From Microbacteriaceae bacterium (GTDB lineage Bacteria > Actinomycetota > Actinomycetes > Actinomycetales > Microbacteriaceae), in the NCBI GenBank assembly GCA_025463565.1, contig JAODAT010000042.1, forward strand, positions 1 through 35,932: a stretch of 35,932 nt of DNA, in the 5' to 3' direction. Under the pieces are notes generated by a model. That model had not been told where the DNA came from. It saw only the letters and a list, made by a program, of their open reading frames with translations, and searched no databases. This document shows, in pieces, positions 3,114-20,186 of this stretch. The translations under genes and the position numbers were made by a program. Numbering within the stretch: the first letter of the stretch is position 1; every line of letters starts with the position of its first letter.

Positions 3114-4199
3114 TCAGACCGGAGAGGTCGGGGTTGTCGGGATCGGCAAGGGAGCGAACCGCTCGACGCCGAGTCCGGTCGCGATGCCGAGCAGCGTCTC
3201 CCACACGTCCTGGGGAATCTCGACGCCCTCCTTCAGTTTCTTCTCGCGGGTGATCTTGCTCCGCTCTCCCGGGTAGTACACCCGGTCGCCTTCGACCGCG
3301 GGCTTGCTGCTCGCCACGTATTCCGTCATCTCGCCGAGCTCGCGGCGGAAGTCGGCGAGCGGCCGGAACGCCTCAACGTTGAAGACGGCCATGAAGCAGC
3401 CGTCGATGATCGGCCACGGGCGGGAGAGATCCTCGCGGAACCCCATTCCCGAGAGCACATCGGCCATCGCCTCGATCATGAAACTGAGCACGTAGCCCTT
3501 GTGCGCCTGCGGTCCGCCGAGGGGAAGCACCGATCCCCCGGCCTCCAGGTCGTTGGGGTCCGTCGTCTGGCGACCTTCTGAGTCGATGATCCAGCCCTCC
3601 GGGATCGGCCGTCCCTCCGCGACGCCCCGGCGAATCTTGGTGAGCGACACCGCGCCGGAGGTCATGTCGAACCCGACGTAGCCGTTCTCCTCGTTGGGCA
3701 TCGCCATGGACCACGGGTTGATGCCGAGTCGGCGCTCGCGCCCACCGTACGGCGCCATCAGCTTCGGGCCCCACGCGCCGTCCGTCATCATGATCGCGAT
3801 CATGCCCGCGCGTGCCGCCATGGACGTGTAGTCGATCAGGCACCCGACGTGCGTCTGGTTGCGGATGCTCGCGGCCGCCACGAAGGACGTGGACGCCTTG
3901 TCGATCAGCTTGTTCATAACGTTGTGACTGACCACGTGACCGAAGTTGAAATGACCGTCGACCATCAGGGTGGTCGGGGTCTCCTTCACGATCTCGAGCG
4001 GCGCGCCCGGAATCAGGATGCCCTCCTTGATCAGGGGCAGATAGGAGGTGCCGAGGTCCATGCCGTGCAATTGCTCACCCGACAGAAGGGAGGCGACGCT
4101 GTGTTCGGCGATGATCGCGGCATCTTCCCTCGGAACCCCGGAGGCCACGAGTATCTCGATACTGAACGGCGCGACATCTTCGGCACGGAATTTGGGCAT
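3114..4199 (-). CDS. Ldh family (malate/L-lactate/ureidoglycolate-type) NAD(P)-dependent oxidoreductase
   Basis: A 361-residue protein of the Ldh2 fold, whose members oxidise 2-hydroxyacids such as malate, L-lactate, ureidoglycolate or sulfolactate, or reduce cyclic imines. Visible family blocks are GEQLHGMD (residues 41-48, with the family histidine), the THVGCLIDY region (116-124), APYGG (149-153) and LGINP (158-162). The reading frame stays open upstream to about 4769, but the ATG at 4199 is chosen because an AGGAGA site precedes it. It then begins two bases after the amidohydrolase stop at 4202, which suggests translational coupling. It is cytoplasmic. In this context it probably oxidises a hydroxyacid intermediate, but the substrate is inference. 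Confidence 0.88.
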   Translation of the reverse strand: MPKFRAEDVAPFSIEILVASGVPREDAAIIAEHSVASLLSGEQLHGMDLGTSYLPLIKEGILIPGAPLEIVKETPTTLMVDGHFNFGHVVSHNVMNKLIDKASTSFVAAASIRNQTHVGCLIDYTSMAARAGMIAIMMTDGAWGPKLMAPYGGRERRLGINPWSMAMPNEENGYVGFDMTSGAVSLTKIRRGVAEGRPIPEGWIIDSEGRQTTDPNDLEAGGSVLPLGGPQAHKGYVLSFMIEAMADVLSGMGFREDLSRPWPIIDGCFMAVFNVEAFRPLADFRRELGEMTEYVASSKPAVEGDRVYYPGERSKITREKKLKEGVEIPQDVWETLLGIATGLGVERFAPLPIPTTPTSPV

Positions 4200-4201
4200 G
4201 G

Positions 4202-5041
4202 TCAGTCTCCTTGGATCCAGCGGGTCACTCCGAAGAACCGCCCGGCGGTGCCGCTCAGCACCTCGAGCTGCTCCGACTCGGCGAGGGGTGAAACGGCGAG
4301 GCGGGCGAATTCGGCCAGTTGCTCGTACGTGCCGGCGCTTGCGGCAGGCGTGTAGTTGGACCCCCACATCACGCGCTGCGGACCGAACGTGGCGCACAGG
4401 TCGAGCAGACGTTCCTGGGCTTGGGGGTAGGGAAACGTCTCGCGGGTCGCCTCGGGCAGCGCAGATGCCTTGACGAAGATGTTGGGCAGGTCCGCCAGTG
4501 CGAGCACGGCATCCCACTCGTCGAAACGCGCGGAGACGGGAGTCTGCGCGAAGACGTTCGTGCCGGCATGATCGAGCACTATCGGAAGACCGGGGTGCGC
4601 TGCCGCGACCTTCCGGAAGCCGTCGGTGAATCCCGGCGCGTAGATCGAGACGGGCAGCCGGAGGTTCTCGGCCGCAGTCCAGAACGCATCGGCCTCCGAC
4701 GCGAACAGCGCCGGCTCGGTCGGCAGGGTGAAGACCCTCAGGCCGACGATTCCCGCGCGAGCGCTCCATCCGGCGAGCGATGCAGGATTATCGAGCATGG
4801 AACGCTCGAACTTGCCCAGTACCTTGAAACGGTCGGGATGTGCTGCCGCGCCGGCTAGGGAATAGTCGTCGGCATCGAAATACCTGGTCACCTGCAGGAG
4901 TCGGCTCACTCCCGCGGAATCCATCAGCTTCCCGAAGGCCGCGGGATCGATCGGCTTGTCCGTGGCAGCCAGGTTCACGATCTCAGTGGCCGAGGGCTGC
5001 CAGTAGTGAGCGTGGGTGTCGACGACGGAGGCCCGCGTCAC
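4202..5041 (-). CDS. Amidohydrolase family protein (amidohydrolase-2, TIM barrel)
   Basis: A 279-residue metal-dependent hydrolase or decarboxylase of the amidohydrolase-2 group. The HxH metal motif is DTHAHYW (His10, His12) and a third ligand candidate is LDHAG (His158). Near the C-terminus the motif reads MWGSNYTPA, with Asn where many members have Asp; Asn variants do occur in the family. The frame is open much further upstream to 5362, but the GTG at 5041 has a good GGGAGG site eight bases before it and places the HxH motif at the expected N-terminus. It lies 31 bases after the flavoprotein gene and two bases before the Ldh2-type gene. Possible roles are lactone hydrolysis or decarboxylation. 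Confidence 0.87.
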   Translation of the reverse strand: MTRASVVDTHAHYWQPSATEIVNLAATDKPIDPAAFGKLMDSAGVSRLLQVTRYFDADDYSLAGAAAHPDRFKVLGKFERSMLDNPASLAGWSARAGIVGLRVFTLPTEPALFASEADAFWTAAENLRLPVSIYAPGFTDGFRKVAAAHPGLPIVLDHAGTNVFAQTPVSARFDEWDAVLALADLPNIFVKASALPEATRETFPYPQAQERLLDLCATFGPQRVMWGSNYTPAASAGTYEQLAEFARLAVSPLAESEQLEVLSGTAGRFFGVTRWIQGD

Positions 5042-5072: not shown

Positions 5073-5996
5073 TCACAGGGCTCCCGCTCGCACCTGCAGT
5101 TCGCGCGAGACGGTCCATGCGACACCGATGCCGTCCCCGATCGCGCCCGCCACCGTGCGTGAAGTGCCGGCGCGCATGTCGCCGATCGCGAACAGGTTTC
5201 GCGTCGACGGATCGCTCGTGACCACGCGGAGCTCACCATCGACCTCGAATGCGGCCGTGTCGTCGACCAGGCCCTCGAGGAGGGAGCGCCGAGGCACGCG
5301 CGGCACCGCGAGGAAGACGCCGTCAGCACTGACATCCGGCGCGCCGGCACGATGCGCGACATCCACCGCCCCGTCCGCCGTCTTGGAAACCGAGAACGAA
5401 CCGGATGCCTGCACGAAGTCGACCGAGTCGCCCGCCGGCGCCGTCAAGCGCCAGAATTCTCCATCGGCGCCCGACCAGTCACCCACCGCGGTCACCCGGC
5501 TCGCATACTGGCGCAGCACCTGCACCTCGTAGACGGCATCCCGCCCATCGCCGAGCACGATGACGCCCTTGTTCTTGAAGAGGGGCGCGTCGCAACTGGC
5601 GCAGATCGAGACGCCGCTGCCATACAGCTCCTGGGCACCGGCCACCGCCGCGAAGTCGGCCTCGGAGCCCGTGGCGATCACCACCGCGTCGGCCTCGAGC
5701 CTGGCGCCGTCGATGAGCCAGGTGCCCCGATCGGAACGCGCGAGGCTGGCGACCTCGGAGTAGTCGATCTTCACACCGGCATCCATCGCGCGGTCGAGCA
5801 GCACCGCCGAGAGGTCCGGACCGGTCACCGGGTCGAGAGAACCGAGGTTGCCGTTGATCTCGAGCAGCGACGCCATCTCACCTCCGGGTGCCAGGGCCTC
5901 GATGAGCGTGACGTCGAGCCCGAGTTCCCGCGCGGCGATCGCACAGCTCAGGCCAGCGGGACCCGCACCGATGACGGCAAGGGGTACGTGTGCCAT
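5073..5996 (-). CDS. Thioredoxin-reductase-like FAD flavoprotein with CASC redox motif
   Basis: A 307-residue protein with low-molecular-weight thioredoxin reductase architecture: N-terminal FAD motif GAGPAG (residues 10-15), central nucleotide domain, and C-terminal FAD motif with IGDMRAGTSRT. The redox-active CxxC is present as CASC (Cys132, Cys135) where the family has CATC. The central GDGRDA keeps GxGxxA, but the HRRxxxR motif that binds the NADPH 2'-phosphate in classical enzymes is absent; the equivalent region reads VTAVGDWSGADGEF. The electron donor may therefore not be NADPH. The gene starts ten bases after the CGSC-motif protein, so that protein is the natural candidate for its thiol substrate. 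The housekeeping reductase is probably elsewhere. Confidence 0.88.
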   Translation of the reverse strand: MAHVPLAVIGAGPAGLSCAIAARELGLDVTLIEALAPGGEMASLLEINGNLGSLDPVTGPDLSAVLLDRAMDAGVKIDYSEVASLARSDRGTWLIDGARLEADAVVIATGSEADFAAVAGAQELYGSGVSICASCDAPLFKNKGVIVLGDGRDAVYEVQVLRQYASRVTAVGDWSGADGEFWRLTAPAGDSVDFVQASGSFSVSKTADGAVDVAHRAGAPDVSADGVFLAVPRVPRRSLLEGLVDDTAAFEVDGELRVVTSDPSTRNLFAIGDMRAGTSRTVAGAIGDGIGVAWTVSRELQVRAGAL

Positions 5997-6006
5997 CTGC
6001 GTTGCC

Positions 6007-7737
6007 TCAGCCGATCAGTTCGGCCAGCGCTGCATTGACCTCGACGCGACGGTACTGCGGAAGACCCTGCGCGTGGTTGTTCGCGTAGAACCGGTTCTGG
6101 TTGCGTCCGGGGTCACCGGCCACCACGATGCGCACCTCGTGCTCGTCGGCGATCACCGGCAGCAGCCTGCTGGGGTCATCCGATTCCGCGAAGTGCTCGG
6201 GGATGCGGCCTGCGTCGACCATCTCCTTGAACGTGTACGGGTTGCCGCGGGTCATGGTGCCGAACTTCTCCATGAGGTCGGCCTCCACCTTCACGTTGTT
6301 CGCCAGGTATTTGCGGATGTCGCTCTTCGAGTAGCCCTCCTGGGCGAACGACGCGGCGACGCTCGGGCTCATCAGCAGCAGCGTCGAACTGGCGTGGAAC
6401 AGGATGTGCGTGAAGCCCCATCCACCGATGGTGTCCTTCGCGAACCGCGTGAGCACCTCGAGCTGATCCTCCGGCGTACCGCCCGTGTACGCGGGGCCGC
6501 TGATGCCGACGACGCTCTGCACCGACACCACGGTGTCTGTAAGGGAGAACCCGGCGTCGACGCGGTCCGGGTTCCAGCCGGCGGCGATCGTCAGATCGTC
6601 GTTCTCGGCGAGGGCGACGTTGAAGGTACGGCCGATTGCCGCCTTGTCGGTGTCGCCCGGCTCGGTGAGCAGGCCGGCCACGTTCCTCATGTACATGCGC
6701 ACGAACCGGCCGATGGACGTGTTCGCCCGACGCCCGACCCGCATCATGCCGCCCTGGTAGTTGAAGTCCAGCGCCTTCACCAGCGGACCGCTGACGACGA
6801 CCAGGGGCTCCCAACCGGGGGTGCATCCCGCGTCTTCGATGCGCCAGTTCGGGTCGGTGATCACTTCGACGATGCCGAGCAGGATGGGCATGTACTCGGG
6901 CTTGCAGCCGGCCATGACGCCATTGACGGCGACGGACCACACCGTGGCCTCGCGGCTCGCGGGGAGGATGACTCCGATGACCTCGTCGGCCTTGCGGTCG
7001 GTGAACTCCATGAAGCGGTCGACCCGCTCCAGGGTCGGCGGCACGACGGGCAGTCCGTCGCTCCACAGTCGCTCGTCGAAGAAGTCCTGCACCTCGTCGA
7101 GAGTGCCGCTCACCACGATGTCGCGCGGCGCCGGTTCGGCGACCGGAGCGGCCGCGTCATCGATCCGGAATCCGGCGGTAAGCCGATCGAATCCTTCGAA
7201 CAGGCTCGGCACCACCACGTCGCGGGTCTTCTGCAGGAACACCTCGTCGGTGTCGTTAGGGATGACTCCGGGGTACTCCGCGATCCAGGTGTGCTCGATT
7301 CCGAGCGAACGCCCGATCGACTTCGCCTGCCGCATGAACCCGCTCGCGACCAGCGCGAAGGTGGGCACGCCGGCGGCCTCGACCGCCTCCGCCGCCCGCA
7401 TGACCGCGGGCGTGCAGCTGCCGCATGCCCCGACGCCCACGATCGCGGCGTCGACGTTGTATTCGGCGAGCAGTTTCGGCATCCGCGCGAGCACCTCGTG
7501 CTCGTCGGTGTGACCGTGGATGTCACCGAAGACCTCCCACGGAATGGTTGTGAACGTCTGGCCGCGGCGCTCGGCCTCGGCCTGGAATTCGTCGAAGATG
7601 TCCTGGCCACGGAAGAGGTCGTCCCAGATGAAGGCGATGTGCGAGCCAGCGACCGAATCGAGTTTTCGCATTCCGGCGATGGTGTTCTCAACGGCGGGGG
7701 CCTCGGGCCAGACCGCTTCGAAAATGGGTTCGGACAT
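6007..7737 (-). CDS. UGSC-family (seleno)protein homologue, cysteine form (CGSC)
   Basis: A 576-residue protein. The N-terminal domain (about 1-190) carries GVGACGSCTP with Cys105-Gly-Ser-Cys108, matching the U-G-S-C signature of a family in which the first residue is selenocysteine in some members. Here both codons are TGC, so this is the all-cysteine form. A second domain (about 207-576) opens with LWSDGLPVVPPT and contains Cys278 and Cys305. I know no established function for it. No signal peptide or membrane segment is seen. The ATG at 7737 follows GAGGTAAG; an upstream start at 7752 is possible. First gene of the operon, with a thioredoxin-reductase-like gene next. A redox or thiol-dependent role is inferred. 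Confidence 0.8.
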   Translation of the reverse strand: MSEPIFEAVWPEAPAVENTIAGMRKLDSVAGSHIAFIWDDLFRGQDIFDEFQAEAERRGQTFTTIPWEVFGDIHGHTDEHEVLARMPKLLAEYNVDAAIVGVGACGSCTPAVMRAAEAVEAAGVPTFALVASGFMRQAKSIGRSLGIEHTWIAEYPGVIPNDTDEVFLQKTRDVVVPSLFEGFDRLTAGFRIDDAAAPVAEPAPRDIVVSGTLDEVQDFFDERLWSDGLPVVPPTLERVDRFMEFTDRKADEVIGVILPASREATVWSVAVNGVMAGCKPEYMPILLGIVEVITDPNWRIEDAGCTPGWEPLVVVSGPLVKALDFNYQGGMMRVGRRANTSIGRFVRMYMRNVAGLLTEPGDTDKAAIGRTFNVALAENDDLTIAAGWNPDRVDAGFSLTDTVVSVQSVVGISGPAYTGGTPEDQLEVLTRFAKDTIGGWGFTHILFHASSTLLLMSPSVAASFAQEGYSKSDIRKYLANNVKVEADLMEKFGTMTRGNPYTFKEMVDAGRIPEHFAESDDPSRLLPVIADEHEVRIVVAGDPGRNQNRFYANNHAQGLPQYRRVEVNAALAELIG

Positions 7738-7770
7738 GCACTTACCTCGCATCTTTGAGAGCCGCTATTA

Positions 7771-8935: not shown

Positions 8936-10051
8936 TTACTTACGCTCGACGAGCGTGCCGCCCTGGTAGATGGTGAGGGCCTGGTGCGGCACGCTCCCGA
9001 TCGTGAGCTCGCCCACGACCGGCACCCGCGCGACGCTGTTCGAAGTCAGCCGCCCGGTCAGGGTTGCGCCCGCCTTTGTGAGCCCGACATCCCAGTACTG
9101 TCCGGCGTAGACGCGTGAACTCACTTCAAGGCCCGCGATCTCGAGCCGGGGACCGCCTTCGGCCGCACCGACACCCACGAGTTCGAGGGCATCGCTGCGG
9201 AAGCGCATCTCGAGCTTGCCCCTGAGGTATTCGAACCCGGCCACCGGGGCGACCGAGCTAGCGTCCGCAAGCTGCCAGTGCCCCTCGACCGCGTCGATGT
9301 GCAGCACGTTATTTATTCCGAGGAAGCGGGCCACGTCGACCGAAGCCGGCCGCGAATAGACCTCCTCCGGAGTGCCGATCTGCAGGATCCGGCCCGAGCC
9401 CATCACGACGACCAGGTCGGCGACAGAGAATGCCTCGACCTGGTCGTGCGTGACATAGACCCCGGTGAATCCGATTCGCTGATGGATGTTGCGGATCTCC
9501 ACCCGCAGTTCGCTGCGCAGTCGCGCGTCCAGGTTGCTGAGCGGCTCATCGAGCAACAGCACGCCGGGCTCCGCCACGAGGCCGCGCGCGAGCGCAACAC
9601 GCTGCTGCTGGCCTCCGGACAGCTGCCCGGGGTAGCGATCGAGCAGTGGGTCGACCTCCACCAGTTCCGCGACCTGCTTCACGACGTCCGACCGGAGCAT
9701 GTCGCGTTTTCCCCTGGCCCGCAGCGGGAATGCGATGTTCTCACGCACGGTCATGTGCGGCCAGAGCGCGTATGACTGGAATACCATGCCGATGTCCCGC
9801 TTGCGCGGCGGAGCGGAATAACCCCGTGCCGCATCCAGCACTATCGTGTTTCCCAGTTCGATCGTTCCCGCGTTCGGTGTCTCCAGGCCGGCGATGCTGC
9901 GCAGAATCGTCGTCTTTCCACAGCCACTCGGCCCGAGAAGCACGAGTAACTGGCCATCAGGAACCTCGAGGTCGAGGGTATCGATCGCGCGGGTGATCCC
10001 TGCCTTCCCCTTGAAGGTCTTCTCCACTCCACGCAGTCGAACATTTACCAT
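8936..10051 (-). CDS. ABC importer ATP-binding protein (system 1, PotA/FbpC-like)
   Basis: A 371-residue ATPase that powers solute uptake at the inner face of the membrane. Walker A is GPSGCGKTT (40-48), Q-loop FQSYALWPH (91-99), signature LSGGQ (144-148), Walker B VLLLDE (164-169) and H-loop THDQ (201-204). A C-terminal beta-rich TOBE-like region follows from about residue 270. The length and the GPSGCGKTT and LSNLDA motifs fit the polyamine/iron/phosphonate importer class. It lies 45 bases after the permease gene and 9 before the Gfo/Idh/MocA gene. The binding protein of the system is most likely the divergent lipoprotein at 12058. The solute is not identifiable. Confidence 0.93.
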   Translation of the reverse strand: MVNVRLRGVEKTFKGKAGITRAIDTLDLEVPDGQLLVLLGPSGCGKTTILRSIAGLETPNAGTIELGNTIVLDAARGYSAPPRKRDIGMVFQSYALWPHMTVRENIAFPLRARGKRDMLRSDVVKQVAELVEVDPLLDRYPGQLSGGQQQRVALARGLVAEPGVLLLDEPLSNLDARLRSELRVEIRNIHQRIGFTGVYVTHDQVEAFSVADLVVVMGSGRILQIGTPEEVYSRPASVDVARFLGINNVLHIDAVEGHWQLADASSVAPVAGFEYLRGKLEMRFRSDALELVGVGAAEGGPRLEIAGLEVSSRVYAGQYWDVGLTKAGATLTGRLTSNSVARVPVVGELTIGSVPHQALTIYQGGTLVERK

Positions 10052-10096
10052 CTTGTCGTCCCCATATATAGGTTGTTGCGGTCTGAACCGGGTACT

Positions 10097-11809
10097 TCAC
10101 AGCCGATCGAAGGCACGCGACCCTCCGAGAAGGAACGCCAGGCCGACACCAACGGCCGTGACGACGCACATGACGATCGCGAGGGCGGCTACCTGGGGGA
10201 ACGTTCCGGCATCCCAGAAGTCATAGATGACAGTCCCCATGAGGTTGGTGCTGGCGGATCTCACAAAGAGCGACGCCGCGAACTCCTGCGTCAGCAGCAC
10301 GAAGGTGATAGCCACGGCCCCGCCGATGCTGGGGCGCAGCAGCGGCAACGAGACCCGAAGGGTGGTTCGCAGCGTCCCGGCACCGCTCACCCGAGCCGCC
10401 TCGAAATACTGCTCGCCCAGCGTGAGCACGCCGGAGGAGATCATCCTCGTGGCGTGCGGAATCATCAGCGTCACGTACGCGATCACGATGACGGCGAGCG
10501 TGCCATACAGCTGCAGTGGCGGAGCGTTGTACGAGAAGAGAATGCCGGCCCCGAACACCACGGCGGGCGTGACCAGGGGCACCGCCACCAGCACGTCGAG
10601 CAGCACCTTGCGGCGGCGGCCTGCACCTCCGCGCCGCAGAAGCATCGCTGCGGCGAACGCGATGGGAAGCACAATGGCGATCGCGATCGCCGAGGCCCCG
10701 ACGCTGTCAAGTATGCCGTTGAGGGCCTGCGGCGAATGGAATACCAGCGTGTAGTTGGCGGTCGTGAGGTGCGCGAGGGAGAGCTGGCCGCTCCAGAACG
10801 GCAGCAGGGAGACGTGCACGAGTGCGAGCAGCGGCAGCAGCAGCGCGATCACACCGAAGACCACGATCGGCACGGGGGCGAAGGAACTGCCGCCCATCGA
10901 TCGCACCTGCTTGCCGGTCTGTGACACGAATCGCGATGAATCGCCGATCGTGAATCGCTGCGCGACGAGAAGCAGGGCACCGGCGACGATGAGCGGCGAG
11001 CCGAATGCGGCAGCCTGTCCGATGTCGATCGGAAACTGCTGGATGAGCTTGTACATCTGCGTGGTGATGACGTCGAAGCCCTGCTGCCTGCCGAGGAGGA
11101 GCGGGGCGGTGAACTGTCCGAAGCCGAGCAGCAGAACCAGGACTGTCGCGTAGGCGATGCTGGGCCGCAGGAGCGGCAGAACCACGGTACGGAAGCGCAT
11201 GAAGCCCGACGCTCCCGAGACATCGGCGGCCTCGTAGAGTTCGGCGTTCATGTTTCGCAGCGCCGTGATCACGTAGAGGTAGACGAAGGCGGTGAGGTTG
11301 ATCCCGGTGAGAAGCACGATGGACCAGCCCGAGTACACGTTGAGCGGGCCCTGGCGGTCTCCGGTCCACCAGGGCAGGAAACGCAGGAGCGTGTTGATAT
11401 ATCCGACGGTCGGCGAGAGCAGGAACACCCAGCCGATGATGCTGGCGATGGGCGGGAGAACCAGAGGAAGGATCGGCACGAGCGAGAGCCAGCGAAGCTT
11501 CGGCTTGAGCTGGTAGGCGTACCAGGCGAGCCCTGTGCCCACCAGGACAGCGAACACCACGCTGCCCACCGCCAGGAAGAACGAGTTCCAGAGCACCTTG
11601 CCGAGGTCGGGCGACGACAGCAGGCGACCATATGCGGACGCGCCATCCCCCAATGCCGTCGCCTGGAGCCGGATGATCGGTGAGAGCACGAGGAACGCGA
11701 CGACCAGGATGAGAACGCACCAGCTGACGACCATTCGCCATCGACCGCTACCCCGTGTTGCGCGCAATGGAACCTCGGTGGTCGACGTTTCGCTCAAATT
11801 TTGAGACAC
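10097..11809 (-). CDS. ABC importer permease, two fused BPD domains (system 1)
   Basis: A 570-residue integral membrane permease with two binding-protein-dependent transport domains in one chain, as in FbpB-like systems. Each half has about six hydrophobic segments. The ATPase-coupling EAA loops are YEAADVSGASG (about 192-202) and FEAARVSGAG (about 469-478). The frame stays open to 11938, but that region holds a predicted promoter (11909-11938), so the start must be inside it. GTG at 11809 is chosen, though its ribosome site is weak; TTG at 11797 is an alternative. It is the first gene of the permease-ATPase-Gfo operon, divergent from the binding-protein gene at 12058. Confidence 0.88.
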   Translation of the reverse strand: MSQNLSETSTTEVPLRATRGSGRWRMVVSWCVLILVVAFLVLSPIIRLQATALGDGASAYGRLLSSPDLGKVLWNSFFLAVGSVVFAVLVGTGLAWYAYQLKPKLRWLSLVPILPLVLPPIASIIGWVFLLSPTVGYINTLLRFLPWWTGDRQGPLNVYSGWSIVLLTGINLTAFVYLYVITALRNMNAELYEAADVSGASGFMRFRTVVLPLLRPSIAYATVLVLLLGFGQFTAPLLLGRQQGFDVITTQMYKLIQQFPIDIGQAAAFGSPLIVAGALLLVAQRFTIGDSSRFVSQTGKQVRSMGGSSFAPVPIVVFGVIALLLPLLALVHVSLLPFWSGQLSLAHLTTANYTLVFHSPQALNGILDSVGASAIAIAIVLPIAFAAAMLLRRGGAGRRRKVLLDVLVAVPLVTPAVVFGAGILFSYNAPPLQLYGTLAVIVIAYVTLMIPHATRMISSGVLTLGEQYFEAARVSGAGTLRTTLRVSLPLLRPSIGGAVAITFVLLTQEFAASLFVRSASTNLMGTVIYDFWDAGTFPQVAALAIVMCVVTAVGVGLAFLLGGSRAFDRL

Positions 11810-11908
11810 CGTGGGGTTCCGATCATTGCGCGCCCTTTTCGCCAGCCGAGTGGCCCAATCTCCGTCTCGTCGTTGAAATCGAAGGAGCGTCGGGCAAATT
11901 TCATGCTT

Positions 11909-11938
11909 ATTATGCGCATATTTATGAGGAGGTGTCAA
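11909..11938 (-). promoter_or_regulatory. Predicted promoter of the system 1 permease operon
   Basis: Minus-strand TTGACA (11938-11933), 18 bases, then CATAAT (11914-11909). It would give a leader of about 95 bases before the GTG at 11809. It sits back to back with the plus-strand promoter at 11956-11983, so the binding protein and its permease may be controlled together. Confidence 0.55.
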
Positions 11939-11955
11939 GCGAGCCCAAATGCCTC

Positions 11956-11983
11956 TTGACAGGTCCAGTCAAATGTCTATCAT
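11956..11983 (+). promoter_or_regulatory. Predicted promoter and dyad upstream of the system 1 binding-protein operon
   Basis: TTGACA (11956-11961), 16 bases, then TATCAT (11978-11983). An inverted repeat TTGAC-N7-GTCAA (11956-11972) covers the -35 box, a typical place for a repressor or activator. A further dyad AATGTC/GACATT surrounds the -10 region. The binding regulator is unknown. Confidence 0.5.
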
Positions 11984-12013
11984 TATAAGGATTATCGACA
12001 TTGAGGTCGATAT

Positions 12014-12032
12014 GGGAGCCGCACGCGGCCCC
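12014..12032 (+). other. Small hairpin in the leader of the system 1 binding-protein gene
   Basis: The leader can fold with GGG/CCC and GCCGC/GCGGC pairing around one bulged A, about 15 bases before the GGAG ribosome site. It may affect mRNA stability. No known riboswitch class is recognised. Confidence 0.35.
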
Positions 12033-12057
12033 ACGGAAAACCCGACGGAGTGTATCC

Positions 12058-13095
12058 ATGCGAAAGATTTCCACAGCCCTCACAGCAACACTGGTCGTCG
12101 GCCTGGCTGCAGCAGCCCTCACCGCGTGCAGTAGCGCTTCCACCAGCCCGACACCTTCGGCGACGAGTACCGCAAGTTGGTCGAAAGTGCAGTCCGCCGC
12201 CGACAAAGAGAAGACGGTCACCCTGTACGGCAACAAGGCAGCCACGGTGGGAAACGAACTCGGCCTCGCGTTTGAAGCCGAATACCCCGACATCGACTTC
12301 AACTATGTGCAGGGCATCAGTGCCACGCAGGAAATCCAGGTCGACCAGGAGTCGGCCGCCGGCGCCAAAGGTGCAGACGTCTTCCTTCTCACCGATCCCA
12401 TCTACGCCGACAAGCAGGTATCGACCGGAAAGTTCGTCAGCCCGGTCGGCCCCCAGGCACAGAATGCCCAGTGGGCCAAGCAGGTCGGCAAGAGCGGTTA
12501 CGTGAACATCTCGATCGACCCGTACCTCCTGTGCTACAACACGAACCTCGTGAAGACATCGCCCACGACCGTCACGGCGATGCTGAACGACAAGAGCCTC
12601 GGCAACCAGGAGATCGGCATCAGCGACGTCATCGCCCTCGGAACAATCGCGGGCTACAAGGCGTACCAGGCCAAGCTCGGCTCGTCGTTCCTCACGAAGC
12701 TCGCCGCGACCAAACCTCGGGTATATGCAGGATTCAGTGTGATCGCACAGGCCCTGCCCGCTGGCGAGATCAAGGCTTCGCTGGCGATCACCCCGTCGTA
12801 CTACGAGGCGATGTCCGCCGCGAAGGCGCCGGTCAAGTGCACCGTACCCACCGACGCCCCGATCGGAGTCGGCTACCAGGTCGCTGCGCTCAAGAACGCA
12901 AAGAGCCCCAACGCCGCCCAGGTCCTGGTCAACTTCATGATGACCGACAAGGGCCAGAGCATCCTGAACGGCACCTTCGGTCACTCCCCGATCGACACGA
13001 CGAGCAAGCTGGCGGCGTTCAGCTACAAGGGTCTTGACGACCCGGCCACCGTCACTGCGTTCACCCAGAACTTCGACAAGCTCTTCAAGGGCTGA
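12058..13095 (+). CDS. ABC importer substrate-binding lipoprotein (system 1)
   Basis: A 345-residue extracellular solute-binding protein anchored by lipid. Residues 1-23 are a signal peptide with a basic MRK start and hydrophobic core, ending in the lipobox LTAC (lipid-modified Cys24), followed by a Ser/Thr/Ala-rich linker. The body resembles the iron/polyamine/2-aminoethylphosphonate binding-protein class (periplasmic-binding type 2 fold). The ATG at 12058 has GGAG upstream and begins exactly at the signal peptide, so the open frame from 12001 is not used. It is transcribed away from the permease-ATPase operon. A strong hairpin lies just downstream, so this gene is probably expressed above its followers. 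Confidence 0.9.
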   Translation: MRKISTALTATLVVGLAAAALTACSSASTSPTPSATSTASWSKVQSAADKEKTVTLYGNKAATVGNELGLAFEAEYPDIDFNYVQGISATQEIQVDQESAAGAKGADVFLLTDPIYADKQVSTGKFVSPVGPQAQNAQWAKQVGKSGYVNISIDPYLLCYNTNLVKTSPTTVTAMLNDKSLGNQEIGISDVIALGTIAGYKAYQAKLGSSFLTKLAATKPRVYAGFSVIAQALPAGEIKASLAITPSYYEAMSAAKAPVKCTVPTDAPIGVGYQVAALKNAKSPNAAQVLVNFMMTDKGQSILNGTFGHSPIDTTSKLAAFSYKGLDDPATVTAFTQNFDKLFKG

Positions 13096-13108
13096 TCCGT
13101 CGGGTTTG

Positions 13109-15016: not shown

Positions 15017-16009
15017 CTAACGCAGGGCCGGGAGCACCTCTTCGGCGAACACGCGCATGTGGTCGTGGACCTCGCCGGAGGTCATGCCGGGAAACTCCAG
15101 TCGCACGATGTGATGGTGCGTCCGGGACTCGGGAAGCAGGTCGGCGAACTTTCGCAGCCGCCTGATGATCTCTGCTGGCGGGCCGTCGATGACCATCGGG
15201 TCGGAGTCGGTCGAGCGACCCACGCGCGAGCTCAGGTCGCCCGCCTTGACCTGCTGGTAGAAGCCGAGCAGCCGGTCGAGCGCCGCGCGAGTGCTGTCCC
15301 CGTCACTGCCGGCCGACCGCACGACGACGAATGAACTGGAGGCGATATCCAGGTCTGCAGTGCGCCCCGCCTCGGCTGCGGCAGCGTCGACTGCGGCCAC
15401 CTGGGCGGTGAGATCGTCGATGGTGCCGACCGGTGCAATGTACCCGTCGGCGATCCTGCCGGCCCGGGCGAGGGCAGCGCGCGCGCGGCCGCCCAGCCAG
15501 ATCGGGATGTCGCCCACGGTCGGGTAGACCGTCACCGAGGGCGTGGCCGTGTTTTCGAGCTCCACCGGTGAACCGGTCCAGGCCGCTCGACAGATCGCGA
15601 CCATCCGCTCGAGCCGTCGGGCCCGTTGGGTGATCGGCACCCCGAAACCGTCGAACTCCTCCGGTCGGTAGCCGATGGCCGCCCCCACCACGAGCCGTCC
15701 GCGGCTGATCAGCTGCACGGCCGCGGCATCCTCCGCGATCCGGATCGGGTGGTGCAGCGGAGCCAGCAGCACCTTGCTGCCGATGGTGACCCGCTCCGTC
15801 GTTGCCGCGATCGCGGCCAGGAACGGAAAGACCGACGGCAGGTAGCCGTCGTCGGTGAAGTGATGCTCACCGACCCAGACGCTGTCGAAGCCGAGCTGCT
15901 CCGCGCGGCGGGCATACTCGAGCCCCTCCGCCCAGAGCACGGCCGGCTCGCGGTGATCGCCCTCCGCTGCCTGGACAGTGATCGGCCCGAAGCCGACGGA
16001 GAACGTCAC
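15017..16009 (-). CDS. LLM class flavin-dependent oxidoreductase
   Basis: A 330-residue luciferase-like TIM-barrel enzyme that uses reduced FMN or coenzyme F420. Family features are YARRAEQLGFDSVWVGEHHF (about 33-52), RVTIGSKVLLAPLHHP, the SRGRLVVGAAIGYRPEEF block (about 102-119) and IPIWLGGRARAAL. Its start overlaps the ABC ATPase stop by four bases (ATGA), so the two are translationally coupled. An importer ending in an LLM gene recalls organisations in which the imported compound is broken down by a monooxygenase, such as sulfonate utilisation. That parallel is only suggestive. The choice between FMN and F420 cannot be made here, though the right end encodes an F420 enzyme. Confidence 0.9.
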   Translation of the reverse strand: MTFSVGFGPITVQAAEGDHREPAVLWAEGLEYARRAEQLGFDSVWVGEHHFTDDGYLPSVFPFLAAIAATTERVTIGSKVLLAPLHHPIRIAEDAAAVQLISRGRLVVGAAIGYRPEEFDGFGVPITQRARRLERMVAICRAAWTGSPVELENTATPSVTVYPTVGDIPIWLGGRARAALARAGRIADGYIAPVGTIDDLTAQVAAVDAAAAEAGRTADLDIASSSFVVVRSAGSDGDSTRAALDRLLGFYQQVKAGDLSSRVGRSTDSDPMVIDGPPAEIIRRLRKFADLLPESRTHHHIVRLEFPGMTSGEVHDHMRVFAEEVLPALR

Positions 16010-17208
16010 CGCGAGGAGGGCTTATAGACGCGAGCGAACTTCGCGGGGAGAGCGACTGCGAGCGAGCCACCCGGTTCGACATCCGTCGAGCTCGGGAAAT
16101 GCACGCGCATCTCACCCCAGCCTTTAGCCCGAAGCACGGCGCCGCGGTGATCGCCCATGAACATGGTCGTCCTCACCTCGACGGGCCACTCGTTTTTGGC
16201 ACCGGCAGCAGAGGCTTCCCGCAGCTCGAAGCGCTCGGGACGGCCGATGACGCACACCGTGTCGCCCACCGTGATTCCCTCTTCGCCGAGCAGGGCGTCG
16301 ATCTGTCCTGCCTCAGTCTTGATCACCACCGCGCCGTCAGCTCCCAGCGATTCCACCACGCCGTTGATCTCGTTCGTCGCACCGACGAATTTCGCCACGT
16401 AGCGGTCGGCCGGCCGATCATAGATCGCCTCCGGGCGATCGAGCTGGCTGATCTTGCCCGAGTTGAGCACCGCGATGCGATCGGCCAGCTCCATCGCCTC
16501 GTCCTGGTCGTGCGTGACGTAGACGGCCGCGAATCCGATCTCGGACTGCATCTTCAGGATCTCGAAACGCAGCTGTTCGCGCACCTTGGCGTCGACGTTC
16601 GAGAGCGGCTCGTCGAACAGCACCAGCCCGTTGTTCGATACCAGGGCGCGAGCGAGAGCTACGCGCTGCTGCTGGCCACCGCTCAATTGGCCGGGATACT
16701 GCTCGGCGAGTTCTTTGATCCCCGCGAGTTCGAGCACGTTCATCACCCTGTCGCGGATCTGGGACTTCGGCACTCCACGCACCTTCAGGGGATACGCCAC
16801 GTTCGCGGACACCTTCATGTGCGGCCAGAGCGCGTAAGACTGAAAGATCATGCCGAGCTTGCGCTTGTCCGGCGAGGTGTTGACGCGATTGCCGCTCGAG
16901 TAGTGCTGTTCGCCGTTGATCGTGATCGTTCCGCTGTCGGGGTCTTCGAGACCGGCGACGCAGCGCAGCAGGGTCGTCTTGCCGCATCCGCTCGGTCCAA
17001 GCAGCACGACGAACTCACCCTGTTCGATTCGTAGGCTGATGTTGTCGACGGCCGGAACCTTGGTTCCATCGCGTCGTACGAACTCCTTGCGCACGTTTTC
17101 GATGACGAGCGCCGGTGTAGCCGAGGGCGTCTTGTCGGGAGTCGCCTGTCGCAGGGTTCGTTCTGAAACTGCAGTGCTCATGCGTGAGGCTCTTTCCTTT
17201 GATGGCAT
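16006..17208 (-). CDS. ABC importer ATP-binding protein (system 2, PotA/FbpC-like)
   Basis: A 400-residue ATPase energising the second importer. Walker A is GPSGCGKTT (71-79), Q-loop FQSYALWPH, signature LSGGQ (175-179), Walker B LVLFDE (195-200) and H-loop THDQ (232-235); a TOBE-like C-terminal region follows. The ATG at 17208 has a GGAG site and gives a 35-residue Ser/Thr-rich N-terminal extension. An ATG at 17181 is a fair alternative with a weaker site. It lies 18 bases after the permease gene and overlaps the following LLM gene by four bases. It shares the domain plan of the system 1 ATPase but is clearly diverged, so the two importers are not a recent duplication. Confidence 0.92.
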   Translation of the reverse strand: MPSKERASRMSTAVSERTLRQATPDKTPSATPALVIENVRKEFVRRDGTKVPAVDNISLRIEQGEFVVLLGPSGCGKTTLLRCVAGLEDPDSGTITINGEQHYSSGNRVNTSPDKRKLGMIFQSYALWPHMKVSANVAYPLKVRGVPKSQIRDRVMNVLELAGIKELAEQYPGQLSGGQQQRVALARALVSNNGLVLFDEPLSNVDAKVREQLRFEILKMQSEIGFAAVYVTHDQDEAMELADRIAVLNSGKISQLDRPEAIYDRPADRYVAKFVGATNEINGVVESLGADGAVVIKTEAGQIDALLGEEGITVGDTVCVIGRPERFELREASAAGAKNEWPVEVRTTMFMGDHRGAVLRAKGWGEMRVHFPSSTDVEPGGSLAVALPAKFARVYKPSSR

Positions 17209-17226
17209 GTACTTTGCTCCGCCCGC

Positions 17227-19035
17227 TCAGATTCCGCGCGCGGTCGTGCGCTTCTCGATGAAGTGCGCGATGCTGAGAACGACGATGTTCAACACGGTCA
17301 GTCCGAGAGCCAGTGACGCAAGGGTCGCGAATCCCCCGAATTGGAACGTCTGCAGGATGTAGTAGCCGACCACCGGCGTCTGCGTTCCGGCGAGCATGAC
17401 CGAGGCGTTCAGTTCGCCCGTCATCCAGACGAAGAGCAGCCCCCATCCGGCGACCAGCCCCGGAATCATCAGCGGGATATTGATTCGCGCGAAGGTACGT
17501 GCGTTTCCGGCACCGGAGACCCATGATGCCTCCGAGAGCTGCCGGTCCACCTGTGCGGCTGCGGCATCCGCCGCGATAGTCGCCTGGGGAAGGAACAGCA
17601 CCAGATAGCAGAGCAGCAGGATCACGAGGGTGTTTCCGAGGTTGAAGGGCGGCCCCGCGAAGGCCAGCACGAACCCGAGGCCGATTACGATCGCGGACAG
17701 TGCGGCAGGGAGTTTGATCACACCGTCGAGCACTCTGCTGATGCGCGATCGGTGTTCCCGCAGATAGAGAGCAAAGATCGCCGCGACCGTCATGCCGATG
17801 GTCGCACCGATCAGCGCCAGCAAGGTGCTCGTGCCGAATGCGCTCGAGGCCTGCGAGTTGGCAGTGATGCCCGACCAGAGGCGCGTAATATCCAGCGCGC
17901 TCCACTTGATCGCTGTAGTCCAGTAGCCGTTCAACGCCACCAGGATCTGCGCGATCAGGGGAAAGACGAAGGTGAGCGCGAAGTACAGCACAAGCAGGGC
18001 CTGGGCCGGACGGCGCCACTTGCCGAGACGAGTGATGGAATTGCGCTGTCCTTTGCCGCCGATTGAGGAGTGTCGGTTACTTCGAAGGATGCGGCCCTGG
18101 AAATACCAGGCTGTGCCGATCGCGATGATGAGGAAGATACTCAGCCCGACCGCCACCTTGGTGTTCGACGGGTAGGTGAACGTGAGGAGCCTGACGATCT
18201 CCACCGGGAGGACTTTGACGTTCATCTGGGTGCCGAGCACGACCGGTACCGAATAAAACGAGAACCCGAACCACACCATGTAGAGAGCGGCTGCGCCGAG
18301 GCTCGGGCGAAGCACGGGGATGGTGATCCGCATCAGTGTGTGCCTGAGGGATGCGCCGCTGATGCGGGAGGCCTCCTCCATGCTCGCGTCGCTATTGCGG
18401 AGACCGGTAGTAATCATGAGGAAGGCGAAGGGTATCTGGTAGGCGGTGTAGAGAGCGATGAGCCCTGTCCACGAGTAGATGTCGAGCGGCCCGCTCGTGA
18501 GATGAACGCCGAAGAAGTCGAGCACGGCACGGATGATGGCATTGATGAACCCAGCCTGCGGTGCAAGCAGGAACACCCAGCCGATCGCGCCGGCGATAGC
18601 GGGCATCAACATCGGCAACATCGGCATCAGGGCGGCCAGGCGGCCGATGCGGGCATCCGTGCGTTCCATCAGCCATGCGAAGAGCGCGCCGAAGAAGAGC
18701 GCGAGCACCATGCTGCTCGCCACCAGGATCACCGTGTTGAGCAGCATCTGCCCAAGACCGGGATAGTTCAGCACCTCCGAAGCGATCGAGAAATCGAAGG
18801 TGCCGTCGCCGAAGAAGGCCTGGATGAGCACCCGCACGAGCGGGTAGATCACCAGGATTGCGAAGACCAGGCCGAGCACAACGCTTAGCACCGAGAACCA
18901 TCCGCCGCGCCTGGCGCGAGCGACGACACGGGCCCATGGAGAGGCAACGACTGCCATCGCGAGCTCGGCGTCTATGTCATCCAAGCCCCCAGGCGCTTCC
19001 GTGTCGGTCTCCGCCTTCGTGTCGGTCGTAGTCAT
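17227..19035 (-). CDS. ABC importer permease, two fused BPD domains (system 2)
   Basis: A 602-residue membrane permease with two transport domains in one polypeptide. The first 45 residues are polar and acidic, then about twelve hydrophobic segments follow. EAA coupling loops are MEEASRISGASL (about 219-230) and SEASWVSGAGNA (about 501-512), each followed by a proline-rich IPxLxPxL-type turn. The ATG at 19035 is preceded by AGGAG. It is the second gene of the operon, after the binding protein and a strong intergenic hairpin, and 18 bases before the ATPase. The imported solute is unknown; the class includes iron, polyamine, thiamine and aminophosphonate carriers. Confidence 0.92.
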   Translation of the reverse strand: MTTTDTKAETDTEAPGGLDDIDAELAMAVVASPWARVVARARRGGWFSVLSVVLGLVFAILVIYPLVRVLIQAFFGDGTFDFSIASEVLNYPGLGQMLLNTVILVASSMVLALFFGALFAWLMERTDARIGRLAALMPMLPMLMPAIAGAIGWVFLLAPQAGFINAIIRAVLDFFGVHLTSGPLDIYSWTGLIALYTAYQIPFAFLMITTGLRNSDASMEEASRISGASLRHTLMRITIPVLRPSLGAAALYMVWFGFSFYSVPVVLGTQMNVKVLPVEIVRLLTFTYPSNTKVAVGLSIFLIIAIGTAWYFQGRILRSNRHSSIGGKGQRNSITRLGKWRRPAQALLVLYFALTFVFPLIAQILVALNGYWTTAIKWSALDITRLWSGITANSQASSAFGTSTLLALIGATIGMTVAAIFALYLREHRSRISRVLDGVIKLPAALSAIVIGLGFVLAFAGPPFNLGNTLVILLLCYLVLFLPQATIAADAAAAQVDRQLSEASWVSGAGNARTFARINIPLMIPGLVAGWGLLFVWMTGELNASVMLAGTQTPVVGYYILQTFQFGGFATLASLALGLTVLNIVVLSIAHFIEKRTTARGI

Positions 19036-19054
19036 GAAAAGAACTCCTAATCAC

Positions 19055-19092
19055 GTGTGGTTCCCTCCGGTTGCGCCGGGAGGGAACCACAC
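19055..19092 (-). terminator. Strong intercistronic hairpin between binding-protein and permease genes
   Basis: Perfect 14-base arms GTGTGGTTCCCTCC and GGAGGGAACCACAC with a 10-base loop, 20 bases after the binding-protein stop. On the minus strand a short T-rich stretch (TTCTTTTC) follows but also spans the permease ribosome site. It is best read as an attenuator or stabiliser giving more binding protein than permease. Confidence 0.7.
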
Positions 19093-19112
19093 TGTGGTGT
19101 TGCTACGTTGTG

Positions 19113-20186
19113 CTACTTCACGCCGAGCGCCGCAAGGATTTGCGGCTGCCTGGTCGCTGCGTCAGGCGCGACGGCAAGTGACTGGATCTCCTTGGTCGTG
19201 AGCTTCGGGTTCAACACCCAGACGTCATGACCGACCTTGGCCACAGCTTCGTCCCCCTCGGGCGAAAGCAGCCAGTTGGCCAGCAGGCGAGCGGCAGCCG
19301 GGTGCGGCGCCTTGGCAGAAGGGGTCATCCCGAGCTCCAGCTTCGAGCCGGTCGTAATCGGTGCCGTGATGTAGGCGACGGGTGCTCCTGCGGCGATCAC
19401 CGGTGCGAGAGCCGGAACGGAGGTCGGCGCGTTGATCGAGCCCTCGCCCGCAGCCAGGTCCTGCGCCGCTGCAGCAGCGCTCGCGTCGAACTTAGGCATG
19501 TTCGCCCCGATTGCCTTCAGCGTCTTTGCGCCGTAGACGGTCTGGATGCGGTCCCAGAATTCGACGTAGGCGATCGACGCTGCCGGGTTGCTAGTGATGA
19601 TCTTGCCCTTCCACTTCGGGTCGGCGAAGTCCTTGAAGGTCTTGGGCGCATCCTTCTTGCTCACGAGGTTGGTGTTGTATGCGATCACCCAGGGGATGTA
19701 CGACACGGCCGCTGTGGTCTGGCCCAGGAAGGCGGTCGGATAGGCCTTGCTGTCGATGACGGGGATGCCCGCCTTCTTGACCGGTTCCAGCCAGCCGTTC
19801 GGGACGAACGTCGAGGTCGAGAGTGCATCGATCTCAGTACCGACGATCACGTCGGCGTTGTAGTCGCCGGCGGTCGCCTCGGCCGTGAAACGCTGCAGGA
19901 GCGCGGCGCCGGACAGGCCGAGCAGGTTGACGTGGATGTTGTACTTGTTCTGGAACTGCTGAGCCGCGTATTCGGAACCAGCGACCGGAATGGCGCTGTA
20001 CCAGTTGACGCTCCCTTCCGCCTGAGCCTCCTTGATGAGCTTGGTCAGCGCGGGGGAATTGGCCGACCCGGAGGCCGATGCTGTGCTTGACGGGGTGCTG
20101 CCTGAACTGCAGGCGGCGAGACCGAGCGCCAGGGTGGCGAGGACCGCCCCACCGACGATCAGGCGTTTTGCGCGTGTGATTGGCAT
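19113..20186 (-). CDS. ABC importer substrate-binding lipoprotein (system 2)
   Basis: A 357-residue lipid-anchored extracellular binding protein. The signal peptide (1-25) has basic residues at its start, a hydrophobic core and the lipobox LAAC (Cys26), followed by a Ser/Thr/Ala-rich linker. The mature part has the type 2 periplasmic-binding pattern of ferric/polyamine-like proteins, for example IPWVIAYNTNLVSKKDAP and PKTFKDFADPKWKGKI. The ATG at 20186 has an ideal GAGGAG site five bases upstream. It is the first gene of the system 2 operon. The consensus-like promoter (20220-20250) and the hairpin after it predict high expression. The ligand is unknown and differs in sequence context from system 1. 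Confidence 0.93.
   Translation of the reverse strand: MPITRAKRLIVGGAVLATLALGLAACSSGSTPSSTASASGSANSPALTKLIKEAQAEGSVNWYSAIPVAGSEYAAQQFQNKYNIHVNLLGLSGAALLQRFTAEATAGDYNADVIVGTEIDALSTSTFVPNGWLEPVKKAGIPVIDSKAYPTAFLGQTTAAVSYIPWVIAYNTNLVSKKDAPKTFKDFADPKWKGKIITSNPAASIAYVEFWDRIQTVYGAKTLKAIGANMPKFDASAAAAAQDLAAGEGSINAPTSVPALAPVIAAGAPVAYITAPITTGSKLELGMTPSAKAPHPAAARLLANWLLSPEGDEAVAKVGHDVWVLNPKLTTKEIQSLAVAPDAATRQPQILAALGVK

Follow-up and report, generated by a model that had tools for sequence, protein, structure and literature searches.

A cysteine-form UGSC protein fused to an unnamed domain beside a thioredoxin-reductase-like gene, and its possible remote kinship to glycine and proline reductases

The window analysed here, a 35,932-nucleotide stretch that is part of a 3.1-Mb Microbacteriaceae assembly (88% complete), encodes a 576-aa protein in which a UGSC domain is joined to a second domain, next to a gene for a thioredoxin reductase (TrxR)-like flavoprotein. 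Comparison of sequence profiles suggests that this protein could be the Cys form of a two-part reductase of the GrdB/PrdB type that cleaves an activated bond within a pathway of carboxylic acids, the flavoprotein re-reducing it, a reading to which a probability of roughly 0.45 is given. Its basis is sequence: gene order, conserved pairing, a recurring thiol supply, Sec/Cys exchange and profile homology with the Sec position in register. The features concerned are as follows:

6007..7737 (-), UGSC domain and partner domain in one protein, 576 aa if translation starts at ATG 7737; it may instead start upstream, at 7749 or 7752
7213..7710 (-), UGSC domain (PF24696), Pfam match
7414..7425 (-), CGSC codons, Cys105-Gly-Ser-Cys108, with Cys where many relatives carry Sec
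6010..7152 (-), second, unnamed domain with linker ('CDOM'), containing the conserved MAGC cysteine (Cys278)
5073..5996 (-), TrxR-like flavoprotein, 307 aa, CASC and GxGxxA present, HRRxxxR lost
4202..5041 (-), amidohydrolase family 2, order as in the Microbacterium locus L002; start GTG at 5041 inferred
3114..4208 (-), Ldh_2 (malate/lactate-type) dehydrogenase, order as in L002
1917..3101 (-), thiolase, downstream and in the same direction as the candidate unit

Pfam places the N-terminal part in the UGSC family at 67.5 bits against a cut-off of 25 (E 2e-18, residues 14-179 of a 580-aa translation), and the [U/C]GxC motif of the family is present as CGSC at residues 105-108 of the 576-aa numbering (109-112 in the 580-aa translation); the open reading frame itself, 6007-7752 (-), gives 581 aa, 576 being counted from the ATG at 7737. 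An earlier, sequence-only reading of the region had described a 576-residue Cys form of the UGSC family with C105-G-S-C108 and two further cysteines in a second domain, and this description is confirmed by the Pfam score and by the positions of the other cysteines, Cys278 and Cys305, both in the second domain (one extra appears only with the longer start). The protein scores 44.6 bits on the NCBIfam UGSC equivalog NF041046, under its cut-off of 125, and neither Pfam nor NCBIfam matches its remainder outside UGSC at 0.001. The second cysteine of the CGSC motif is conserved in all 32 rows of one alignment (A3) and Cys278 in all 33 rows of another (A4), the latter position being Ala in L043, L050 and L051, which all lie outside A4; Cys305 is a cysteine in two of the 33 rows. 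A fusion of UGSC to a conserved domain, Unknown_1, is already mentioned in the pertinent passages of a 2008 survey (PMC2398784), and the unnamed partner is possibly the same domain.

The proposed link to the reductases comes from profile-profile alignment (hhalign, with Sec written as Cys) against GRDB-family members taken from Actinobacteria. Over some 50 to 90 aligned columns, and in pairwise, uncorrected E-values, UGSC aligned with a GrdB-like profile at 3e-5 (all UGSC) or 5e-6 (stand-alone set) and with a PrdB-like profile at 4e-5 or 0.0037, respectively; the reciprocal comparisons gave 8e-6 and 5e-6, and the catalytic Sec/Cys positions of UGSC and GrdB/PrdB coincide in the alignments. A combined GrdB/PrdB catalytic profile, built and trimmed round the Sec position only after the separate results were known, reached 1.8e-8 (all) and 3e-7 (stand-alone), the best of 100 column shuffles being 0.016. 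In the controls, the best of 100 column shuffles each was 0.023 for GrdB and 0.0042 for PrdB, reversed profiles gave 0.085 or worse, and 13 non-UGSC neighbour families gave 0.031 or worse. The stand-alone set against the PrdB-like profile alone (0.0037) is no better than the best shuffle, and families with CxxC can reach about 0.0013 by chance, since this was the value obtained for the PrdB-like profile against an unrelated Trx-like domain that also carries CxxC. The Pfam GRDB model (PF07355) does not match the window protein at 0.001 and is unlisted for 32 UGSC members scanned to E 1.

The motif given for GrdB in a 2026 review, UxxCxxC (PMC13188914), occurs in 24 of the 37 Sec UGSC matches and 5 of the 45 Cys ones; the window protein, with CGSCTPA, lacks its third cysteine. 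In that review PrdB and GrdB are described as homologous, and UGSC is set apart from them, named in the same sentence as Trx-fold proteins and described as largely uncharacterised (PMC13188914). Within the text it covered, a literature search found no paper connecting UGSC to GrdB/PrdB. The partner domain gave only E 0.32 (hhalign) against GrdE-like proteins, which are encoded upstream of GrdB-like genes. In the glycine/proline reductase complex a pyruvoyl group arises from a cysteine; the MAGC cysteine of the partner domain is replaced by Ala in the three relatives named above. Thirteen Actinobacteria GrdB-like genes (L170-L182) contain an in-frame stop at the Sec position, mostly with a GrdE-like gene upstream, and represent glycine-reductase-type genes outside Clostridia.

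The pairing of UGSC with its partner was surveyed in neighbourhoods taken from genomes and plasmids, 88 stretches being scanned with custom profiles; 83 of them contain UGSC, with 87 matches in total, two TAG-split genes being counted twice. For 84 of the 87 matches (83 loci) the partner domain is fused to UGSC or encoded on the same strand no more than 1.5 kb away, and the three others are L097 and L098, near contig ends, and L142, with the partner 5.9 kb off. Most loci beyond the scan of the phylum with PF24696 were retrieved with the fused protein, which biases the survey toward partner-bearing loci; retrieval by UGSC only, in the PF24696 scan of the phylum, yielded 43 matches above the cut-off, of which 41 were fetched and 39 have the partner, the misses being L097 and L098. 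As in the window, UGSC and partner form a single protein in 10 of 56 UGSC rows. Because the pairing is nearly constant across the surveyed loci and sometimes takes the form of a fusion, the two domains probably form one functional unit. With the whole fused protein as query, matches came from 5 of 299 genomes in the family to which the window belongs and from 25 of 394 in the class (own genome included in both), with none in five listed same-genus relatives, and PF24696 was detected in 29 of the phylum's 396 genomes, in 27 of them above the cut-off.

Three fused proteins (L047:7390-9111, L065:6737-8461 and L069:6365-8050) retain the partner together with a degenerate UGSC part that reads DMGTS at the motif site, and aconitase X is found near L065 and L069. 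Judging from such sequences, the partner domain may be able to work without a Sec/Cys centre. An Arthrobacter plasmid UGSC protein (L070:8027-8809 (+)) carries a C-terminal NifU-like match of 27.4 bits (cut-off 27).

Among relatives, Sec and Cys exchange at the first motif position. Of 15 genomes scanned for tRNA-Sec, 9 have one above the cut-off; the window's assembly (88% complete) is not among them, which is consistent with the Cys form. The link between Cys form and tRNA-Sec absence is not strict, since two genomes (G848 and G856) have a tRNA-Sec though their fetched UGSC matches carry Cys. In G1033, a genome with a tRNA-Sec above the cut-off, the Sec position is occupied by TAG instead of TGA in both UGSC genes (L143:10340-10342 (+) and L155:10458-10460 (-)); some Actinobacteria read UAG as Sec. 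A Paracoccus ferrooxidans plasmid carries Sec-type UGSC with partner (L072:6396-8014 and 11329-13104), with selB about 3 kb off.

The flavoprotein gene lies ten bases downstream of the UGSC gene (5073-5996 and 6007-7737), as the sequence-only reading had stated in pointing to its CASC site. A Microbacterium chromosome (L002) repeats the order UGSC, TrxR, amidohydrolase, Ldh_2, with 80% identity in the best UGSC segment, and the pairing of UGSC and TrxR in the window is no chance event; no thiolase was found within 8 kb of UGSC in L002. In the Microbacterium copy (L002:8001-12620) the UGSC, amidohydrolase and Ldh_2 genes are interrupted and read in several frames, reflecting assembly errors or decay. 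Elsewhere in the window, at 8936-13095 and 16006-20186, are two ABC-transporter gene sets with binding proteins, and a homologue of the second binding protein was found near UGSC in L002 and L071.

In the survey as a whole, 13 of the 83 loci have a TrxR-like gene (at least 190 bits on a custom profile) no farther than 5 kb from UGSC, namely 11 of 44 Cys, 1 of 37 Sec and 1 of 2 TAG loci; the difference between Cys and Sec loci gives a Fisher p of 0.005 with the kinship of loci ignored, the window and L002 being close and L132, L135 and L142 belonging to one genus (g384). Some TrxR neighbours may be missed, as one side is shorter than 5 kb in 21 loci. Chance alone would give about 0.3 such loci among the 83, judging from 20 TrxR-like places in some 54 Mb across 12 author-chosen genomes. 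The adjacency, which the earlier reading proposed to check for fixity, is not fixed: it is above chance, yet a minority arrangement, missing in 70 of 83 loci. The idea of a dedicated thiol supply fares better, for TrxR genes recur, in an Arthrobacter locus in the order trxB-trxA-partner-UGSC and in a Roseovarius locus as partner-UGSC-trxB, and the N-terminus of the partner bears a fused Trx-like domain in 18 of 37 Sec, 0 of 44 Cys and 1 of 2 TAG loci (p 4e-8, kinship ignored). These fused domains have C[PEA]TC in fourteen cases and CPTS in three weaker ones, the motif of L140 being left unread; Pfam at 0.001 left the Trx-like domain unnamed in all four fused proteins scanned, and a profile of 12 such domains aligned with a thioredoxin at E 4e-6 (hhalign) with CxxC and VPT in register.

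In the flavoprotein the CASC site, at residues 132-135 of 307, lies between the FAD and NADPH parts and aligns with CATC of 11 unlinked TrxRs; the TIGR01292 score is 145 bits, under the equivalog cut-off of 343. In the same alignment the window and L002 proteins retain GxGxxA and lack HRRxxxR. The latter motif is also absent from the linked copies L043, L063, L071, L099 and L155 and retained in L067, L068, L070, L132, L135 and L142; it varies in 4 of the 11 unlinked TrxRs, the window genome's own included, but at least two arginines remain. Since a second, separate TrxR is encoded elsewhere in the window's genome (G000:C90), the UGSC-linked copy is an additional one. Sequence comparison suggests that linked TrxR-like genes were recruited repeatedly, although long branches leave the placement of the window copy in the TrxR tree unsure. 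The loss of HRRxxxR means that the electron donor of the window flavoprotein is possibly other than NADPH; according to PMC10880999, C. difficile TrxRs without NAD(P)H motifs are taken as ferredoxin users.

It is tempting to outline how such a reductase would operate; the substrate class, the redox cycling, the functions of the partner and of either cysteine, and the electron donor are what we infer here. The partner domain would probably bind or activate the substrate, Cys105 would attack an activated C-N, C-O, C-S or C-halogen bond in the alpha position relative to a carboxyl or carbonyl group, Cys108 would resolve the intermediate to leave a disulfide, and the adjacent flavoprotein could re-reduce this disulfide directly or through a thioredoxin. 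Dethiolation, one of the steps proposed earlier, is one of several possibilities. By analogy, in the account given by parts of one review, the Sec-bearing protein B of glycine reductase expels the amino group with a thioredoxin dithiol as reductant, and D-proline reductase uses a dithiol in breaking the alpha C-N bond (PMC10298544). Thioredoxin is ruled out as partner of the latter in the same account, which counts against the reductase reading, while the clostridial grd operon bears its own trxA/trxB according to the portion of PMC10880999 describing it, which counts in its favour. Also weighing against a GrdB/PrdB-like enzyme are the lack of a GRDB match, the E-value of 0.32 between partner and GrdE-like proteins, the missing third cysteine in the window protein, the absence of TrxR from 70 of 83 loci and the AlphaFold model, for which structural comparison returned generic alpha/beta matches only. 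Catabolic neighbours are frequent, yet no single family is constant: within 8 kb of UGSC, 12 of 87 loci have CaiB-type CoA-transferases, 26 have SDRs, 21 have acyl-CoA dehydrogenases and 4 have relatives of the amidohydrolase found in the window (counts for which no chance rate was computed).

Alternatively, the CGSC domain might merely pass electrons from the flavoprotein to another pathway enzyme as a dithiol relay or carrier, as the sequence-only reading had proposed. A CxxC-type motif, TrxR-like neighbours and Trx-like domains fused to the partner would all suit such a role, and the recurrence of a thiol supply upholds that part of the proposal. However, UGSC does not match the Trx-like profile (E 0.058 and 0.11) while GrdB-like profiles do match, and the large partner domain with its invariant residues suggests catalysis. 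Nor does the predicted fold favour a carrier: the AlphaFold2 model (48 rows; pLDDT 83.7, pTM 0.86) shows UGSC as an alternating beta/alpha domain of five strands with CGSC after the third. A Trx-like fold was considered likely for UGSC in a passage of the 2008 survey (PMC2398784); in the model the domain is not evidently thioredoxin-like. A simple carrier appears unlikely, and the profile homology favours a bond-cleaving GrdB/PrdB-type reductase, which seems to fit better. Thiol peroxidases and disulfide or sulfoxide reductases are common among Sec/Cys exchange families linked to thioredoxin, and together with the thiol-supply linkage this could point to a thiol peroxidase or organic-disulfide/sulfoxide reductase for oxidative defence. 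Such a function looks improbable given the often catabolic neighbours listed above, and no peroxiredoxin family was among the Pfam matches of the window protein and 32 UGSC members.

A further reading is an enzyme without redox chemistry, of a racemase-, hydrolase- or lyase-like kind, in which Cys105 would serve as covalent nucleophile and the TrxR-like neighbour would act separately. Such an enzyme would be at ease with a cysteine placed, in the model, after a strand of a beta/alpha domain, with the many loci that have no TrxR-like neighbour and with the lost NADPH motif of the linked flavoprotein; the invariance of the second motif cysteine (32/32 rows), the linkage of differing TrxR types at differing loci and the fused Trx-like domains speak for redox cycling instead, which makes a non-redox role rather unlikely. 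Returning to the GrdB/PrdB-like reductase, a broader and quite tentative extension would be that UGSC and its unnamed partner add a third branch, found far beyond Clostridia, to the glycine/proline reductase superfamily, with a Sec or Cys nucleophile and a new partner replacing the pyruvoyl subunit, and that they cleave an activated bond in carboxylic-acid catabolism. Within that scheme electrons would come from a fused thioredoxin-like domain in many Sec forms, or from a recruited TrxR-like flavoprotein, in some cases without the NADPH motif, in some Cys forms, the window's included.

UGSC is listed among the most abundant selenoprotein families in the ocean-sampling survey of 2008 (PMC2398784). 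For a family so far known mainly as a selenium protein, an apparent distant kinship to glycine and proline reductases suggests a testable job, and the GrdB/PrdB link, the near-constant partner and the repeated thiol supply lead to a defined biochemical question, namely the bond that is reduced and the source of the electrons. Since a Cys form needs no selenium machinery and ordinary hosts can express it, the window's pair is a convenient test object.

Set against known systems, the window protein shares the N-terminal domain and the CGSC motif with the UGSC family (PF24696; NF041046) and differs by Cys replacing Sec, the fused partner domain, the TrxR-like neighbour and a score under the NCBIfam equivalog cut-off. 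The flavoprotein has sequence kinship to solved TrxRs, a CxxC site and GxGxxA in common with low-molecular-weight thioredoxin reductases (TIGR01292), from which it departs in reaching 145 of 343 bits and in losing HRRxxxR; the ferredoxin-dependent clostridial TrxRs, as characterised in the excerpted text of PMC10880999, are without both NAD(P)H motifs, whereas the window flavoprotein is without HRRxxxR but with GxGxxA. With GrdB and PrdB (PF07355) UGSC shares the profile match, a catalytic Sec/Cys in register and, in 24 of 37 Sec matches, UxxCxxC, while its partner is an unnamed domain with no convincing match to GrdE-like proteins and PF07355 itself does not match. The grd operon of glycine reductase, in the segment of PMC10880999 cited above, holds its own Trx and TrxR genes, and UGSC loci are sometimes accompanied by TrxR or a Trx-like domain. 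Finally, although the farACEB products are GrdB/GrdE homologues of an anaerobe, likened to UGSC by description and not by sequence, the proposed fluoroacetate reductase of Synergistota, in the passages that describe its induced operon (PMC10838667), shows that a different activated carboxylate has already been proposed as the target of GrdB-like proteins.
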